Origin: an uncultured Bacteroidota bacterium
Lineage (GTDB): Bacteria > Bacteroidota > Bacteroidia > Bacteroidales > VadinHA17
Direction of reading: 5' to 3'
Assembly: GCA_903824785.1 (NCBI GenBank)
Contig: CAIJYD010000030.1
Coordinates: 1 to 64,000 of the forward strand
DNA length: 64,000 nt
Part shown: in pieces, positions 45,970-53,552 of the stretch
How positions within the stretch are numbered: position 1 is the stretch's first letter
How the letters are laid out: each line of letters opens with the position of its first letter
Notes under the pieces: model-generated
Told to the model about the DNA's origin: nothing
Seen by the model: the letters and a program-made list of their open reading frames with translations, nothing else
Databases searched by the model: none
Position numbers and translations under genes: made by a program

Positions 45970-46632
45970 CTACCATTTTATTGGCTCAATCCCTTTTTCT
46001 GTAAGATAATTATTACATCTGCTGAAGTGTTTGTTTCCGAAGAATCCACGCGAAGCAGAAAGCGGAGAGGGGTGAACCGATTCCAGAATGAGGTTTTTTG
46101 ATCTGTCAATTGATTCACATTTATTCCGGGCGAAAGAGCCCCATAAAAAATAGACGAGATTCTGTTTCTCGTTATTCAGAATGTTGATTACACTATCGGT
46201 AAATTGTTCCCATCCCTTTTTCTGATGCGATCCGGGTACTCCGTCTTTAACAGTTAATGTAGCATTCAAAAGCAGAACCCCCTGGGAAGCCCATCGTTCC
46301 AGATTACCGTTAACCGGTTTTTTTAGTCCCAGATCCATCTCAATTTCTTTAAAAATATTAAGTAGACTGGGAGGAGAGGCTACCCCTTCACGTACTGAAA
46401 AACATAATCCATGTGCCTGTCCCGGACCATGATACGGATCCTGTCCGATAATAACCGCTTTTACATTATTGAAGGAGCACAGATCAAATGCATTGAATAT
46501 CAGGCTTCCCGGAGGATAAACGGTATGGGCTTTATATTCTTCCCGGATATAATCCGAAAGTTTTACGAAATACTCCTTTTCAAATTCAGCCTGAAGTTTT
46601 GACTTCCAGCCCGGCTCAATCCTGACATTCAT
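45970..46632 (-). CDS. ung: Uracil-DNA glycosylase
   Basis: A 220-residue family 1 enzyme that removes uracil from DNA. Water-activating Asp is D65 (GQDPYHGPGQAHGLCFSV), the uracil-binding region includes LLLNATLTV, and the minor-groove loop is HPSPLSASRGFFG (His 187). Length and motifs match canonical Ung. It is single on the minus strand, converging on the lipoprotein gene. Confidence 0.95.
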   Translation of the reverse strand: MNVRIEPGWKSKLQAEFEKEYFVKLSDYIREEYKAHTVYPPGSLIFNAFDLCSFNNVKAVIIGQDPYHGPGQAHGLCFSVREGVASPPSLLNIFKEIEMDLGLKKPVNGNLERWASQGVLLLNATLTVKDGVPGSHQKKGWEQFTDSVINILNNEKQNLVYFLWGSFARNKCESIDRSKNLILESVHPSPLSASRGFFGNKHFSRCNNYLTEKGIEPIKW

Positions 46633-46711
46633 TATTTGATTATTATAACTTCGGTTAGTCTGAAAATATCAGCTAAAATAGATAAAAATACAATAGGTGA
46701 TCCGGAGAACT

Positions 46712-46744
46712 AAAGTCCAAAAATTCGGAAAGTCCTTAAAGTCC
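46712..46744. repeat. Three degenerate AAAGTCC direct repeats
   Basis: AAAGTCC occurs at 46712-46718, 46729-46735 and 46738-46744 in an AT-rich intergenic stretch. It resembles simple tandem repeats seen between genes in this phylum. No function suggested. Confidence 0.5.
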
Positions 46745-46824
46745 TAAAAGCAGGAAAATCAAGACAATCCCTGAATAAGGGTGCCTTTAGGGTATAGCCA
46801 CATTAGTAATTAGTTACAAAATAT

Positions 46825-46832
46825 TAACTTTG
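46825..46832 (+). promoter_or_regulatory. -7 promoter element of the CYTH gene
   Basis: TAACTTTG matches TAnnTTTG and ends only 8 bases before the ATG at 46841. The transcript is predicted to be leaderless or nearly so. Confidence 0.5.
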
Positions 46833-46840
46833 TAATAAAA

Positions 46841-47290
46841 ATGGGAATTGAAACCGAACGCAAGTTTTTAGTAAAGGGTGAATTTAAACATCTGGCTATT
46901 AAAGCGATAAATATCGTTCAATTATATCTTCTGAAAGATCCTGAAAGAACCATACGGATAAGGATTGCAGATGATAAGGCATTTCTCACAATAAAAAGCA
47001 GCAAGGGAAGAAACTCTATCTCCAGAAGTGAATGGGAGTTCCCCATAACCATTTCTGAAGCAGAGGAGATGATGAAAATCTGTATTCCGGGAAAGATAAT
47101 TAAGACCAGGTATCTGATACCGTCCGGCAATCATACTTTTGAAGTTGATGTTTTCCGAGACAGGAATGAGGGTCTGGTAATTGCTGAAATTGAACTTACG
47201 GCAGAAGATGAACAATTTGATAAGCCTGAATGGCTTGGAGAGGAAGTTACCGGTATCCCAAAGTACTTTAATTCAAACCTTATAAAATAA
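46841..47290 (+). CDS. CYTH-domain (triphosphate tunnel) protein
   Basis: A 149-residue protein beginning MGIETERKFLVKGEF, the EXEXK motif (E4-x-E6-x-K8) of triphosphate tunnel metalloenzymes. Further tunnel residues appear in RTIRIRIADDKAFLTIKSSKG, TRYLI and FEVDVFRDRNEGLVIAEIEL. Bacterial members hydrolyse inorganic tripolyphosphate; adenylate cyclase class IV is an alternative but is usually longer. Single gene. Confidence 0.85.
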   Translation: MGIETERKFLVKGEFKHLAIKAINIVQLYLLKDPERTIRIRIADDKAFLTIKSSKGRNSISRSEWEFPITISEAEEMMKICIPGKIIKTRYLIPSGNHTFEVDVFRDRNEGLVIAEIELTAEDEQFDKPEWLGEEVTGIPKYFNSNLIK

Positions 47291-47293
47291 GAG

Positions 47294-47662
47294 CTATTTT
47301 TTAAATATAAAATAAACAGCCAGTATCAGGAAAAAGAATCCGATAATATGGTTAAACCGGAATTGTTCATTTTTGAAGACAATCAGTGTAAAAGCAGTAA
47401 ACACGAGAATTGAGATAACTTCCTGAATCACTTTCAATTCAATAAGTGAAAAAGGACCTCCGTTTTCACGGAAACCTATGCGGTTGGCAGGTACCTGAAG
47501 TGAGTATTCAAAAAATGCTATTCCCCAGCTTATCAGTATAACAGCAATGAGGGTAATGTTTTCAAAACGACTCATTGTCTTAAGCTTCAGATGTCCGTAC
47601 CAGGCAACTGTCATAAATGTATTTGACATCACCAGAAGTATTACTGTATAGAAACCTTTCAT
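47294..47662 (-). CDS. DUF486 small membrane protein
   Basis: A 122-residue protein with four membrane helices. DUF486 features are LLVMSNTFMTVAWYGHLK near the N-terminus and the segment FFEYSLQVPANRIGF at about 55-69. Distantly related to DMT-type small transporters; function unknown. It lies downstream of the ATP-grasp genes on the same strand with a 75-base gap. Confidence 0.85.
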   Translation of the reverse strand: MKGFYTVILLVMSNTFMTVAWYGHLKLKTMSRFENITLIAVILISWGIAFFEYSLQVPANRIGFRENGGPFSLIELKVIQEVISILVFTAFTLIVFKNEQFRFNHIIGFFFLILAVYFIFKK

Positions 47663-47737
47663 TATGTGTCAGGTGTGTTAAGAAATACTGGTAGAAGCTC
47701 TGTTTTGAACAGGTGAAAATTTCCTGATTTCACCAGG

Positions 47738-48703
47738 TCATCTGTTAAGATCATTAATAATCCGCTGAATAACCTGAATAAAAGGATACCCCGCCTCTTT
47801 CGTAGCAGCTACAAAGCCGCCATCAGGTGATATGCACGGATTGGCATTTATCTCAATAACAAAAACATTATTGTCTTTATCAGTTCTGGAATCTACCCTG
47901 GCATATCCTTTTAATCCAAAAAGATTCCAGCAGGCAATAGCTGTTTCCCGAAGGTTACTCTCCAGTTCAGGGTTGAGGCTTTTGCCGGGAAACTCCCTTA
48001 CAGTATTAATATATTCGAAGCTATCCATTTCCCATTTAGCTTTGAAATCGACTATTCTTGGTTTATCATCACCATAATTAACAAAGACAATTTCAGCAGG
48101 CGGCATCACTTCCGGACCATTTTCGCCTGCCAGGATACTGATATTAAACTCTCTTCCATCAATAAAATCTTCAATAAACCAGTGAGAATCATCAAGTCCT
48201 TTTAATCTATCTTCAAACCCCGGCTTGCACTCAAAAACCGATTCCTCCGTAATTCCAAGTGACCCATCCTCCCATATGGGCTTAACAATATATTTTCTTC
48301 CGGGCGTAAGAAGGTTCATCTGAGAAGGCAGAAATGATGCGGGATTATTTATTCCCGCATTCCTCATTGAACTGCTGGCCAGTGTTTTATTGCTGGTGAT
48401 AAACATGGCTTCAAGCGGGTTGCCTGAATAGGGAATTGAATAGAGGTTCAATAGTGCCGGAATGAAATAATTAAGCTCACCTTTATTATTGATCGATTCG
48501 ACCAGATTAATAACAAAGTCAGGTTTCTCTGAAGCAAGAACTGCTATTTCATTCATAAAAGCGGCGGAGATCCCTTTACGGTAGACTTCAATTCCCAGCT
48601 TGCTGAGATGGTCTCCGATATAATCAGCCTGATCTAGAACATCAAGCTCATCGGCTAAAGCACCTTCACCCGGTTCATTATAAATAATACAGCATCTCTT
48701 CAT
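47738..48703 (-). CDS. D-Ala-D-Ala-ligase-like ATP-grasp enzyme B
   Basis: A 321-residue ATP-grasp ligase. It has a ligand-binding N-terminal domain (MKRCCIIYNEPGEGAL), nucleotide-binding KYIVKPIWEDGSLGI near 135, IEDFIDGREFNISIL near 176-190, and the metal-binding C-terminus VIEINANPCISPDGGF. Such enzymes join a carboxylate to an amine with ATP, often making dipeptides. I use the ATG at 48703; an ATG at 48751 overlapping the upstream stop would add 16 residues. It is the third gene of the kamA operon. Its position suggests it extends or modifies the product of enzyme A. Confidence 0.8.
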   Translation of the reverse strand: MKRCCIIYNEPGEGALADELDVLDQADYIGDHLSKLGIEVYRKGISAAFMNEIAVLASEKPDFVINLVESINNKGELNYFIPALLNLYSIPYSGNPLEAMFITSNKTLASSSMRNAGINNPASFLPSQMNLLTPGRKYIVKPIWEDGSLGITEESVFECKPGFEDRLKGLDDSHWFIEDFIDGREFNISILAGENGPEVMPPAEIVFVNYGDDKPRIVDFKAKWEMDSFEYINTVREFPGKSLNPELESNLRETAIACWNLFGLKGYARVDSRTDKDNNVFVIEINANPCISPDGGFVAATKEAGYPFIQVIQRIINDLNR

Positions 48704-48747
48704 AATAGATATATAAGCAAATTCCTCTGAGGCTCTACTGTGGGTCA

Positions 48748-49722
48748 TCACCTGCCACCATTCACCCTCTTAATAGCCGCCTTCATAATCATCTCCATCA
48801 ATGTCTGATATTCAATGCCATACATTCTTGACAGGATCGGCAAGTCAGAATGAACAGGGTTTAATCCCGCAAGAGGATTTGCTTCAATGAAACATATTCT
48901 GCCGTTACGGTCGGCTTTCAGATCCACTCGTCCGGCATCGACTGCATCGAGTGCTTTCCATGCAGATATTGCCACAGATTTGCATTCGTTTGAAATGTCA
49001 GCATCAAGAGGTGAATATTTGCAGTATTCCAGATAGTTTTCCTTAACCTCTACTGAATAGGGCAGGTTATTTGCACAAATTACCTCCATTCCGCCAATTG
49101 CTATGGCTTCATCACCATACCCGACGATACCTACAGTGAATTCTCTTCCCGGTAAATACTCTTCAACCAAAGCCGGCTGATGAAACTCAGAGAGGATCCA
49201 TTCAACCATCTTTTTAAGATCTTCGAAAGAATGAACGAGGCTTTTTTCGGTTATCCCTTTTCCGGTGCCTTCAGAAACAGGCTTGACAAAAAGCGGGAAT
49301 TCAAGATGGCAAGCCGACAAATCATCAACCTTAGTTATCAGGCAACCGGGACTGACAGGAACTCCGGCAGCAGCAACCACAAGCTTTGCTATATGTTTGT
49401 TCAACGACAATCCCATTATTACGGGACCACTGAAAACATAAGGTATTTTGTACTGATCAAGAATAGCAGGGACCACAGATTCCCTTCCGTCTCCATACAA
49501 CCCTTCAGCAATATTAAAGATCATATCCCACCGTTTTCCGTCAGCAAGAGCTTCAATGAGCTGGAATGCATTCCCGACAGGTTCAGTTTCATGCCCCATC
49601 AGTTTTAAGGAATTTTCCAGAGCATCTACTGTTTCCTGTTTGTCGAATTCGGCAGTTTCATCCATGGAATATCCACGGTCAATATACCATGACCGCAGAT
49701 CAAAAGTTAGACCAATTTTCAT
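48748..49722 (-). CDS. D-Ala-D-Ala-ligase-like ATP-grasp enzyme A
   Basis: A 324-residue ATP-grasp ligase. Motifs are FNIAEGLYGDGRESVVPAI (substrate-binding loop region at about 68-86), LFVKPVSEGTGKGI near 144-157, VEEYLPGREFTVGIVG near 185-200 and FIEANPLAGLNP near 278-289. It differs from true Ddl in its N-terminal region and pairs with a second ligase downstream. It starts 9 bases after kamA ends, so the two are translated together. Substrates could include a beta-amino acid made by KamA; that is inference. Confidence 0.8.
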   Translation of the reverse strand: MKIGLTFDLRSWYIDRGYSMDETAEFDKQETVDALENSLKLMGHETEPVGNAFQLIEALADGKRWDMIFNIAEGLYGDGRESVVPAILDQYKIPYVFSGPVIMGLSLNKHIAKLVVAAAGVPVSPGCLITKVDDLSACHLEFPLFVKPVSEGTGKGITEKSLVHSFEDLKKMVEWILSEFHQPALVEEYLPGREFTVGIVGYGDEAIAIGGMEVICANNLPYSVEVKENYLEYCKYSPLDADISNECKSVAISAWKALDAVDAGRVDLKADRNGRICFIEANPLAGLNPVHSDLPILSRMYGIEYQTLMEMIMKAAIKRVNGGR

Positions 49723-49731
49723 CTGTAATTC

Positions 49732-50973
49732 CTATTTTTCAGGATATTCGCACAATACACCTTTATAATTACGCATAACAATATGTTCGCTGTTATGTTC
49801 CACAACATAATTTGGAAGCAAAGGAATTTTTCCTCCTCCTCCGGGTGCATCAATAACAAAAGTTGGAACTGCATATCCGCTTGTAAAACCTCTGAGCCCT
49901 TTAATTATTTCAAGACCTTTTTTAACTGTAGTCCTGAAATGAGCTGACCCCGGTATTAAATCGCACTGATAAAGATAATAAGGACGTACCCTTATTTTGA
50001 GCAACTTATGCATAAGTTCCTTCATAACAGGGACATTATCATTAATACCTTTAAGCAGAACAGTCTGGCTGCCGAGAGGAAAACCATTATCGGCCAGTTT
50101 TATACAGGCTTTTGCGCATTCATCGGTAATTTCAGCAGGATGCGAGAAGTGCAGGCTGATAAACAGCGGGTGATATTTTTTAAGTATACTTATTAAACCG
50201 TCTGTAATCCTCTGAGGTAAAACCACAGGGATCCTTGTTCCGATTCGAATAATCTCAACATGTTCAATTTTACGGATGTTTGAAAGGATATAATCGAGAA
50301 GCTCATCACTTAATGTAAGCGGATCTCCGCCACTGATAAGAACATCTCTTACCTCTTTATGACTTGCAATATAGCTGAAAGCCTTATCAAAATCCTGCCT
50401 TCCGAGCCTGTCCAGTCTTCCGACAGAATGCGAACGGGTACAATATCTGCAATAGTTTGAGCAAACCTGAGTAACAGTAAATAATACCCTGTCGGGGTAT
50501 CTGTGAACGATCCCTTTTACAGGAGAATAGGACTTCTCGTGCAATGGATCTGACTGCTCAGTATTATGCTGCAACAACTCTTCAACTACCGGAATGACAT
50601 TTCGTCTCAGTGGATCTGAGAATTTGCTGTTATAGATCAGTGAGGCGAAATAGGGAGTTATCCTCAGGGGAAGACGGCCTTTAAGATTACTAATAGCCAT
50701 AATCTCCTTATCGGACAATTTCATGATTTTCTTTAGGTCTTCGATGCTTGAGAAAGCATTCCGAAGTTGCCATTTCCAATCATTCCAGGAATCGATGTTT
50801 GTTAGGGGGAAGTAGCGGTGCAGGAACTCCGAACTTCGGGTGGATACTAACTGATTTGGGATTTCAATTTGCGAAAATAACGTGGTTTTCGCGCCAGGTT
50901 CTTCATCAGAAGAACAACCCACGAGGCGACTCTCTCCATGGAGGGTCGTAGCCTCATTATTGTTAGTGTTCAT
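49732..50973 (-). CDS. kamA: KamA-family radical SAM lysine 2,3-aminomutase
   Basis: A 413-residue radical-SAM, PLP-dependent aminomutase predicted to convert L-lysine to beta-lysine. The [4Fe-4S] motif is C171, C175, C178 (QVCSNYCRYCTR), the SAM-binding GGDPL is at 215-219, and the PLP Lys is K382 in DAPGGGGK. D338 (YLYQCD) and D375 (VIDAPGGGGK) match the two Asp residues that bind the lysine epsilon-amino group in clostridial KAM; glutamate 2,3-aminomutase has Lys and Asn there, so lysine is the favoured substrate. The first ~35 residues are polar and unlike family members. First gene of an operon with two ATP-grasp enzymes. Confidence 0.85.
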   Translation of the reverse strand: MNTNNNEATTLHGESRLVGCSSDEEPGAKTTLFSQIEIPNQLVSTRSSEFLHRYFPLTNIDSWNDWKWQLRNAFSSIEDLKKIMKLSDKEIMAISNLKGRLPLRITPYFASLIYNSKFSDPLRRNVIPVVEELLQHNTEQSDPLHEKSYSPVKGIVHRYPDRVLFTVTQVCSNYCRYCTRSHSVGRLDRLGRQDFDKAFSYIASHKEVRDVLISGGDPLTLSDELLDYILSNIRKIEHVEIIRIGTRIPVVLPQRITDGLISILKKYHPLFISLHFSHPAEITDECAKACIKLADNGFPLGSQTVLLKGINDNVPVMKELMHKLLKIRVRPYYLYQCDLIPGSAHFRTTVKKGLEIIKGLRGFTSGYAVPTFVIDAPGGGGKIPLLPNYVVEHNSEHIVMRNYKGVLCEYPEK

Positions 50974-52173
50974 AGCAGATGATGAGAATTTTCATCTTTT
51001 CTTTTTAAGTTTAATTGTTTTTATTAATTTATGTTTATCTAAAATATTTAGGACGAAAATATATAATCTCTAAAGATAATTCACTATTCAACCACAAGAA
51101 ATATTAACACTCCAATCATTTTATTAACAATCACCATTCGGAAACAACTATTTAACATCCTATATAACTGTTTAACAAGATGTTATGTCTAAATTAAATT
51201 CAGGGATAATTTACCCTGAATCCATTGTTTTTCACATCATTTCTCCTCAAATAAACTGTTATTATTTTCACAATAATTCCGGCAGACCTGATTTTCTTCC
51301 TGAATCTTATTCTCACGGTTATTCACAAAAATAATGCCAGTTTTTTTCAAATTATTATCCGGTCTGAATCATTATCAGGCAGCAACGGATACTGCCTGAA
51401 AAAATTGTATTTTGAATTTTAATTCTGAGATAATCCGTAAAAAAATTAGCTGACAAATCAGAGATTAAAGTTTGGAGTGTAAAGAGTTCAACTTTACAGA
51501 TCAGATTCTATTTTAGATTTTAGCTGACTTTAGTAATTACTTCCATATAAATAATGTTTAATAGCAATATTACTAATGCATTTCACTTGATAAAAAACTC
51601 ACCCCTGCTTTTGAAGGAGAGAAAACTTCTATTTAACTCTGTTTTAAGATTTTACAGATTAAGGTTTGAAAATACGGCCATTGGGGGGTCAACATCACTG
51701 AAATATCCAGCATGCAGGATAATGATACCCTCAAAAGTGAAAAATTATGCTTAATTTAAACTTTAGGAATTAATCAGGTTTAATAAAATTAGGATATTTT
51801 TGCATGCATTTCTGTAAAAATGAAATTATTGTTAAGTGAAGAATCCAAAACAATATTTTTAGTTGGAATCATGATAATTAAAACACACCAATATTGAAAA
51901 GATAAAATAATATGACTACCGGGTATCAGGCATAAATCAGGTATTTATTTTTGTTGACAAGATACAGTTCTTAATTCCAGGAGATTACCTTCGGTGAGCT
52001 CGTCCCTAAAAACTGGGACTCGGTTCCTCACTTCTCCGCTTTATGGCGGATTCGTTTAAAATAATTGTTAATTGGAGGTTGGTTTTTTTACATTTTTTCG
52101 TATAATATTAATATTTTTAAAGAAATTTAAACAACAGTGGAATAATCTTGTTTAATAAAATTGATTTAAAACT
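50974..52173. other. 1.2-kb gene-free AT-rich region
   Basis: No credible gene. Most of it is AT-rich, with short open frames that lack any family character. The exception is a GC-richer, structured patch at 51991-52050 (separate entry). The 3' part should hold the promoter of the MFS gene; no clear TAnnTTTG element was found. Confidence 0.6.
51994..52050. repeat. Structured patch with nested hairpins
   Basis: Two nested inverted repeats, GTGAG (51994-51998)/CTCAC (52027-52031) and GTCCC (52002-52006)/GGGAC (52015-52019), are followed by a separate TCCGC (52035-52039)/GCGGA (52046-52050) hairpin. The block stands out from surrounding AT-rich sequence. It could be a small RNA, a leader element of the exporter gene 180 bases downstream, or a repeat remnant; no known RNA family is recognised. 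Confidence 0.4.
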
Positions 52174-52226
52174 ATGACAAAAAAACAAATAACCGGATAC
52201 TAGCGCTTCTATTTGTTGGTGTTCTG

Positions 52227-53552
52227 ATGGGAGCCCTTGATATTTCGATAGTAGGACCAGCCATACCAGCTATTGAGAAATCGATAAATGTTGATAAGCA
52301 ACTAATGTCATGGATCTTCTCAATCTATGTACTTGCAAATCTTGTAGGCATATCCCTTATGGCCAAACTATCTGATTTATACGGCAGGAGAAAGATTTAT
52401 ATTATTTCACTTTCAATATTTGCAATTGGTTCATTAATAGTGGCATTATCTCATAATTTCAATCTTCTTCTTGTCGGAAGAGTAGTTCAGGGGTTTGGTG
52501 CATCCGGAATCTTTCCGGTAGCTTCAGCAGTTGTAGGTGATATATTTCCTCCCGAAAAAAGGGGCAGAGCTCTGGGATTGATTGGTGCTGTATTTGGACT
52601 GGCGTTTATTATGGGACCTGTTATAGCCGGATTGGTATTAAAGTTTTTTGTTTGGAATGACCTTTTCTTCATTAACCTGCCAATTGCTGCTCTTCTTATT
52701 TATTTCAGCAATAAATTATTACCATCGATTCCTATAGCAAAAGAATCTGAGATTGACTGGAAAGGAATAGGTATTTTAGGCCTGCTGCTATCAACATTCG
52801 CTTACGGAATAAACAGGATAAATGCGGACTCATTCATTGACAGTATTCTTTCATATAAAGTTCTGCCTTTTCTGATAATTGCTTTAATATCAGCAATTAC
52901 ATTGATATTCATTGAATTGAAGGCAATAACCCCGGTGGTGAATCCAAGGCTTTTTCTGGTCCGCCAGATTCGTATAACAGGATTAATCGCATTTGGCACA
53001 GGCGTTTTCCAGGCTTCATTTGTATTTCTTCCGTCAATGGCTATTGCTTCATTTGGAGTAGCTGCATCTACAGCCAGTTTTATGCTGCTTCCTGTTGTAA
53101 TTGCCACTGCAATAGGTTCTCCTGTTTCAGGAACTCTTTTAGATAAATTTGGTTCAAGGATGCTGATAATTGCAGGTTTAATTCTTGCTGCACTTGGCTT
53201 TATAATATTAAGTAATGTTCAAAGCGACAAACTTGTTTTCTATTGTGGCGGAGTATTTCTTGGCCTTGGATTCTCAATTCTTTCTGGTTCAGCATTACGC
53301 TATGTGATGCTGAATGAAGTATCTGCTTCTGAAAGAGCTTCTACACAGGGACTAATAACTATATTTATAAGCGTAGGTCAGATGACAGGAGCTGCTATTA
53401 TTGGTACGCTGGTTGCATCGAGCAAGGTTGCTCTTGAAGGATATAAACAAGTTGCCTTTTTTATTGCAATATTCGCCGGGATCCTAGCGATCACTGGAAT
53501 TTTTCTTAAAAGCCGTGCTTCAGAGCTTAAGATGTCATCAGGATCAGATTAG
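52227..53552 (+). CDS. MFS multidrug exporter (DHA2-type), 5' frameshift
   Basis: A transporter of the 14-helix DHA2 (EmrB-like) class: motif A LSDLYGRRK near residue 47, VVQGFGASGIFPVASAVVGD, and motif C-like IMGPVIAG. As read from the ATG at 52227 the product (441 residues) lacks most of helix 1. The missing start lies one frame away: an ATG at 52174 followed by a 7-A run (52179-52185) leads to a TAG at 52201, while the alternate frame continues ILALLFVGVLMGALD into this gene. One extra base would join them. Either a real indel, a slippage-prone tract, or an assembly error. A MATE exporter gene follows 14 bases downstream. Confidence 0.8.
   Translation: MGALDISIVGPAIPAIEKSINVDKQLMSWIFSIYVLANLVGISLMAKLSDLYGRRKIYIISLSIFAIGSLIVALSHNFNLLLVGRVVQGFGASGIFPVASAVVGDIFPPEKRGRALGLIGAVFGLAFIMGPVIAGLVLKFFVWNDLFFINLPIAALLIYFSNKLLPSIPIAKESEIDWKGIGILGLLLSTFAYGINRINADSFIDSILSYKVLPFLIIALISAITLIFIELKAITPVVNPRLFLVRQIRITGLIAFGTGVFQASFVFLPSMAIASFGVAASTASFMLLPVVIATAIGSPVSGTLLDKFGSRMLIIAGLILAALGFIILSNVQSDKLVFYCGGVFLGLGFSILSGSALRYVMLNEVSASERASTQGLITIFISVGQMTGAAIIGTLVASSKVALEGYKQVAFFIAIFAGILAITGIFLKSRASELKMSSGSD

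Follow-up and report, generated by a model that had tools for sequence, protein, structure and literature searches.

We describe here a minus-strand operon in a 64,000-nucleotide stretch of DNA (positions 1 to 64,000 of contig CAIJYD010000030.1, assembly GCA_903824785.1; hereafter the window) from an uncultured Bacteroidota bacterium of the Bacteroidales lineage VadinHA17. The operon encodes KamA, a member of the lysine 2,3-aminomutase family, and two ATP-grasp ligases which we call LigA and LigB. An earlier note on this DNA had read these three open reading frames (ORFs) as one tightly packed unit, and the genes, their order and their junctions were all reproduced in our analysis. As a unit, however, the three are incomplete, since they omit a small membrane protein gene downstream and the GNAT acetyltransferase that belongs to this family of cassettes. 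The genes lie as follows:

kamA, 49732..50973, minus strand: lysine 2,3-aminomutase family (radical SAM), 413 aa
ligA, 48748..49722, minus strand: ATP-grasp ligase, Ddl fold, 324 aa
ligB, 47738..48703, minus strand: second ATP-grasp ligase, Ddl fold, 321 aa from ATG 48703
DMT_6 (DUF486) gene, 47294..47662, minus strand: small membrane protein, 75 bases 3' of ligB

The gap between kamA and ligA is 9 bases. The ligB ORF is open from a GTG at 48751, which would give a protein of 337 aa and a 4-base overlap with ligA, compared with a 44-base gap if ATG 48703 is used. The ATG is most likely the start, because most relatives in the alignment start no more than a few residues away from it, and the predicted structure has a predicted local distance difference test score (pLDDT) below 50 over residues 1-15. 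The whole genome holds one KamA match, and no GNAT gene is present in the window's own operon.

KamA scores 364.7 bits against the family model TIGR00238 (cut-off 199.2), and its best model is that of the lysine 2,3-aminomutase AblA (TIGR03820), at 500.8 bits against a cut-off of 525.4. It covers just 56 of the 127 positions of LAM_C and reaches 256.8 bits with the EpmB model, below that model's cut-off of 369.3. When aligned with the clostridial enzyme (2a5h), D338 and D375 coincide with its Asp residues, which we take to be the pair that binds the lysine side chain. Both, together with C171, C175 and C178 (presumably the CxxxCxxC cluster motif), are invariant in all 17 aligned KamA proteins, which were drawn from the different gene arrangements. 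The retention of the Asp pair and the cluster cysteines, and their match to the clostridial enzyme, supports lysine as the substrate, and the earlier note's view that both Asp residues are kept and that β-lysine is the likely product is borne out to this extent, though another basic substrate may be used.

Both ligases belong to the Dala_Dala_lig_C family and share much with Ddl, but differ from it where substrate is presumably bound. Their predicted structures (pLDDT 88.4 for LigA and 84.9 for LigB) are nearest to this fold: the 50 PDB matches listed for LigA are Ddl or Van-type ligases and the 50 for LigB are Ddl or related ligases, with template modelling scores by query length of 0.68-0.78 and 0.66-0.74, respectively, among those matches. 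We compared residues in Ddl numbering, leaving six long-branch ligase rows out of the table. K97, K144, E187, K215, R255, D257, E270 and N272, which we take to be the catalytic residues for ATP and Mg, are common to Ddl, LigA and LigB, being kept in the two ligases except for 3 cells, with K215 lost in six of the nine members of a subgroup that we call LigA3; E15 is kept in 52/52 LigA and 32/44 LigB. Of the residues which we assume contact the substrate in Ddl, His63 is replaced by Glu in 105/105 ligase rows (52 LigA, 9 LigA3, 44 LigB) and is His in all Ddl rows, whilst Tyr216, present in 8/8 Ddl rows (7 distinct), is Trp, Glu or others in the ligases. Since the ATP and Mg residues are kept, His63 and Tyr216 are replaced, and the predicted fold is nearest to Ddl, LigA and LigB appear to be functional amino-acid ligases whose pockets differ from that of Ddl.

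The phylogeny is in line with this distinction. In a tree built by a quick method, with rows shorter than 250 aa and many near-identical Bacteroidales loci left out, a branch with a support of 96 has the 48 LigB rows on the same side, and another, with a support of 99, does so for the eight Ddl rows (seven distinct). LigA forms two clades, one of 25 rows (97) and one of 28 rows including the nine LigA3 (98), whose mutual joining is not resolved; L140-L147 make a clade of their own with L158, and a single long-branch row (L167) joins Ddl doubtfully. The genome's own Ddl, on contig C51, groups with E. coli DdlB. With scores of 101.3 bits (LigA) and 81.1 bits (LigB) against a cut-off of 245.65 for the Ddl model TIGR01205, together with the separate supported branches and the His63 to Glu change in all 105 rows, an assignment of either ligase to Ddl was rejected, and the separation from Ddl envisaged in the earlier note stands.

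A scan of named genomes with LigA gave 35 related loci (33 Bacteroidota bins and 2 Desulfobacteraceae), of which 34 have KamA and 33 have LigB, the misses (L043, L046 and L054) being at contig ends; given these counts, the grouping of the three genes is not a matter of chance. LigA matches above 300 bits were found in 26 of the 59 genomes from the window's family, with fragments in one more. The LigA profile matched 86 of 395 sampled Bacteroidota genomes at E <= 1e-50 (own genome included), where the KamA profile matched 128 at E <= 1e-70, and it matched 84 of 247 genomes, at E <= 1e-50, from the phylum of the Desulfobacteraceae relative G453 (itself included), for which we use the label Desulfobacterota. 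KamA lies within 6 kb of 55 of the 68 Bacteroidota LigA hits above 194 bits, elsewhere in the genome for 11 and was not found for 2; for 19 weaker rows (one of which is LigB) the corresponding figures are 16, 3 and 0, with 8 KamA rows below 300 bits left out of these counts. The system therefore extends well beyond this genome, as the neighbourhood search proposed in the earlier note makes clear.

Further loci were chosen by hand from the hit lists to span scores and families, and so are not a random sample. ORF clustering of 18 loci from other Bacteroidota placed LigA in 18 and LigB, GNAT and KamA in 17 each. For 20 Desulfobacterota loci, where our counts are a reading of tblastn placements (ORF picking misreads high-GC loci), LigA and LigB were found in 20, and KamA and GNAT in 16. 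Gene content is constant while order varies. KamA comes first (KamA-LigA-LigB-GNAT) in Bacteroidales and in the majority of Desulfobacterota loci, whereas most loci of other Bacteroidota have it last (LigA-LigB-GNAT-KamA). In L128, L129 and L139, LigB is several kb away from LigA. The recurring core of the loci examined is thus KamA, LigA, LigB and GNAT. RecG, present in 10 of the 18 other Bacteroidota loci, was considered as a member and is taken as a chromosomal neighbour only. Our statements on neighbours cover the identified ones, which make up part of the recurrent neighbourhood clusters.

The fourth gene encodes, in most relatives examined, a GNAT of approximately 160 aa (about 155-165) which adjoins LigB, and in L052 the two are fused with the ATP-grasp part first. 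The nearest solved GNAT structure, 2r7h, is named as a putative D-alanine N-acetyltransferase. In the window's genome the one GNAT match lies on contig C111, away from the operon; it scores 80-145 bits against 47 cassette GNATs (best with L136) and 24 bits against E. coli RimI. Across 58 congeners, 55 of which have LigA, there is at most one GNAT match each: 29 genomes carry a cassette type (at least 50% identity), 24 a remote type, 5 neither and none both. In 27 genomes the cassette type shares a contig with LigA and is no more than about 2 kb away from it, and in 2 it is on another contig. The remote type has 39-46% identity, a 48-residue fragment of unsure type in G722 falling outside this range, and is never on the LigA contig. 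A GNAT tree was built with four outside GNATs, three from E. coli plus the N-terminal part of the L091 histone deacetylase (HDAC) fusion, most of which have very long branches; L133 and two duplicate rows were left out. In this tree the 11 rows of the remote type cluster with L091 and with the cassette GNATs of Bacteroidales (97/93), as they do without the outside rows (98/94). These data suit a GNAT gene that has been displaced with its function kept, a functional linkage which we infer.

The earlier note had found none of the known partner genes for β-lysine here. This holds for AblB, for which a search of the window's genome with TIGR03827 gave no match (the controls matched in 5/14), but not for acetylation more generally, because a GNAT belongs to the system and a relative is encoded on another contig. 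A GNAT-free dipeptide system was rejected on account of the cassette GNAT in most relatives and the related remote GNAT in the window's own genome. For the same reasons, whilst the β-lysine peptide suggested in the earlier note is retained in our proposal, an acetylated form is likelier than a plain dipeptide. A protein with an HDAC fold joined to a GNAT domain was also seen beside the cassette, by Pfam in L091 (7555-9294, GNAT first) and L123 (9282-11543, HDAC first), and a tblastn search with the L091 protein placed it in L122 and L136 too; it is possible that this protein is a deacetylase of the product.

The start of kamA carries a second kind of conservation which went beyond the observations of the earlier note. 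The features are:

Candidate structured RNA (model R1), 50802..50961, minus strand: kamA codons 5-58; a stem-loop, then a GGG/CCC-closed multibranch with three hairpins
Hairpin GAUGA...UCAUC, 50981..50996, minus strand: immediately 5' of the kamA ATG; relatives show compensatory changes
Conserved kamA leader, 50974..51132, minus strand: 159 bases with 74-82% identity to 14 of the 35 related loci, diverged or missing in the rest

Synonymous differences per comparable codon pair are reduced about 4- to 6-fold over codons 1-58, at 0.118 versus 0.44 for the rest of kamA in the type found in the window's genus (16 sequences) and 0.075 versus 0.478 in a second type (12 sequences; truncated KamA and, in this type, L047 and L054 were left out). 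Amino-acid differences are not lower there (0.113 versus 0.089 and 0.138 versus 0.118, respectively). A 30-sequence alignment supports eight helices of 35 pairs, with 98.9% of cells paired, a figure to be read knowing that the structure was derived from the sequences on which it was tested; sliding the alignment by 1-3 columns lowers pairing to 47-68%. Pairs with changes on both sides number 9 compared with 5.2 in shuffles, and the covariation of 0.218 (0.132 in shuffles) was reached by none of 500 shuffles. Taken by itself, the window strand gives a better fold than 200 shuffles do (z -3.04). The kamA frame is open across the element, and so the N-terminal extension of KamA seems to be translated too.

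The RNA model finds three loci from the same family outside the model set (L019, L008 and L021) at E < 1e-35. Searched against 61 sources, it gave four matches in the lineage and then four at E 2.5-6.9, none credible beyond the Bacteroidales lineage, with nothing credible in the Desulfobacterota or other Bacteroidota loci searched. The exact pattern occurs in 50 of 205 loci, with no match in viral contigs, and is lacking in the lineage loci L019 and L008 though the model finds both. Rfam 15 gave no family at E <= 1 in window positions 46500-53000 and no match at gathering score in seven loci, and a known RNA family was rejected on this basis. Hammerhead-like letters noticed by eye in the kamA leader were dropped as explained by the covarying hairpin. 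Taken from these sequence patterns, the element is most likely a cis-regulatory RNA. It resembles lysine and other riboswitches of leaders and coding regions in being a structured conserved stretch ahead of, or running into, a lysine-metabolism gene, but differs in lacking an Rfam match and in lying mostly within the ORF.

We propose a four-enzyme pathway for a small acetylated β-lysine peptide, serving as an intracellular solute or stress metabolite and placed under RNA control in the window's lineage, a reading to which we incline slightly. KamA would convert L-lysine to β-lysine, as its family and conserved residues suggest. LigA and LigB would then make two amide bonds via acyl-phosphates, for which β-lysine is the obvious donor or acceptor, and the GNAT would acetylate one amine, most simply the lysine-like one, to give a neutral or zwitterionic di- or tripeptide. 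In the window's genus this acetylation could be provided by the in-operon GNAT or by the related one encoded elsewhere, and in a few genomes the HDAC-fold protein joined to a GNAT could strip off the acetyl group again. How strongly the operon is expressed probably depends on the structured RNA that overlaps the start of kamA. The product would most likely be intracellular and act as a compatible solute or a metabolite for stress in general, much like N-ε-acetyl-β-lysine or N-acetylglutaminylglutamine amide (NAGGN). This role fits the wide occurrence of the cassette and the fact that no exporter shared by both phyla was identified.

A number of observations weigh against this proposal. The substrates of KamA, LigA, LigB and the GNAT are all predicted, and KamA falls short of the lysine-specific TIGR03820 cut-off. 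No KamA lies within 6 kb of 13 of the 68 LigA hits; L134, L135 and L137 have LigA-LigB-GNAT with no KamA in the stretch fetched, and the LigA3 subgroup (L140-L147) has a LigA relative and KamA with no LigB or GNAT in the stretch fetched. The remote GNAT could have some other role: in G735 it is present with no LigA match, and the mutual exclusion of the two GNAT types follows clades rather than many independent events. For the RNA, further pair types are fewer than in shuffles (17 versus 18.9), many of the changes do no more than set two clades apart, and the sequences that served to test the structure were also those from which it was derived. Several carriers of the window's genus come, by their record titles, from fens and freshwater lakes, which argues against a purely salt-driven osmolyte.

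The loci that depart from the core have features of their own. L134, L135 and L137 have a common neighbour set, which in L134 includes a weak RimK-like ATP-grasp protein and a methyltransferase, and these loci perhaps act on another substrate. In L140-L147 and L101 the LigA relative directly adjoins KamA, neither LigB nor GNAT being seen in the 11-15 kb fetched, and perhaps a related, shorter pathway is encoded. L096 and L154-L157 (Bacteroidota family f30 and G338) have LigA alone, with KamA elsewhere in the genome.

The cassette has its nearest counterparts in two known systems. AblA/AblB, found in methanogens and some bacteria, likewise pairs a lysine 2,3-aminomutase with a GNAT, but our cassette adds two recurrent ATP-grasp ligases, its GNAT (about 155-165 aa) is far below the AblB cut-off and its KamA is below that for AblA. 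Membership of this system by cut-off was rejected on the KamA score (500.8 < 525.4), the cassette GNAT scores of 21-23 bits, and the negative AblB search of the genome. In NAGGN synthesis, an ATP-grasp enzyme and a GNAT (fused in Ngg) make an acetylated dipeptide, sometimes accompanied by a hydrolase. The cassette's ATP-grasp and GNAT proteins, their fusion in L052 and the HDAC-fold hydrolase sometimes beside them are reminiscent of this. It differs in having KamA and two separate Ddl-type ligases, in having no amidotransferase amongst identified neighbours, and in the L052 fusion, where the ATP-grasp part precedes the GNAT. TIGR03103 and TIGR03104, which we take to be the NAGGN cassette models, were absent among the matches listed for the ligases, the GNATs and the L052 fusion, no search by name having been made.

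If one considers KamA and the GNAT as a version of the known Abl pair, the product could be N-acetyl-β-lysine itself, with the ligases acting on other substrates or charging a carrier. The GNATs of L036 and L037 do match AblB weakly (21-23 bits), but the cut-off is 205.1 and the other cassette GNATs are not among the matches listed. KamA with an acetyltransferase, as a route to N-acetyl-β-lysine, has been proposed for salt tolerance in Pelobacter (PMC3543383). Against this reading, two phyla have both ligases repeatedly alongside KamA and GNAT, and LigB is fused to the GNAT in L052, and we consider it unlikely. Lysine catabolism via β-lysine is very improbable: KamA opens clostridial lysine fermentation, but two ATP-consuming ligases do not fit such a route. 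A search of the genome for lysine 5,6-aminomutase gave no match, though the controls gave none either.

The earlier note had also raised a cell-wall cross-link or a small natural product, and nothing amongst the identified neighbours points to either. A secreted antibiotic, siderophore or signal built on β-lysine would have precedent in streptothricin and other peptide antibiotics, and in this lineage a DMT_6 membrane protein follows the operon and an MFS transporter gene at 52227 is divergent from it. Among identified neighbours, however, there is no non-ribosomal peptide synthetase and no exporter that recurs with the cassette in both phyla, and presence in one fifth to one third of sampled genomes is unlike a sporadic antibiotic cluster, so that a secreted product seems improbable. 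Attachment of a β-lysine peptide to peptidoglycan precursors or to a protein is rather improbable too, despite the Ddl-type ligases and the known β-lysylation of EF-P, since no mur or fts gene is found among identified neighbours and the ligases lie outside Ddl in the tree (where Ddl is admittedly represented by just 8 rows, 7 of them distinct). A single LdtF/DpaA-like peptidoglycan amidase was seen at the far end of L052. Modification of EF-P was rejected on the EpmB score of KamA (256.8 < 369.3) and on the best EpmA score in the genome (230.5 against 286.9), which belongs to a 603-aa frame that is probably LysRS.

Returning to the surroundings of the operon, the DMT_6 gene is a probable lineage-specific last gene, with a homologue downstream of the cassette in 18 of the 35 related loci and, in L039, a 4-base overlap with the GNAT gene. 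Between kamA and the MFS transporter gene, which is transcribed divergently from it, lies approximately 1.1 kb of AT-rich DNA (51133-52226) without a listed ORF of 100 aa, where blastn against the 35 related loci matched nothing beyond the 159 bases adjoining kamA. A histidine kinase and a sigma-54 response regulator lie beside or between cassette genes in L052 and L128, and in L129 by clustering only.

The four-gene set is apparently unstudied so far. We found no paper on it among the literature matches listed, as judged from titles and the starts of abstracts, though a 2009 amidoligase survey in Mol. BioSyst. by Iyer and colleagues may mention a neighbourhood of this kind, leaving priority unsettled. 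We put forward only tentatively the broader claim that N-acetylated β-lysine di- or tripeptides are an undescribed class of intracellular metabolite made by the four-enzyme cassette, with LigA in about one fifth of the Bacteroidota and one third of the Desulfobacterota sampled, and that a new riboswitch-like RNA over kamA codons 1-58 governs it in one Bacteroidales lineage. Were a pathway this common to lack a known product, metabolomics would be missing a major small molecule from two environmental phyla. The cassette provides testable enzymes for the joining of a β-amino acid by ATP-grasp ligases, and any ligand of the candidate RNA may reveal what the cassette makes.

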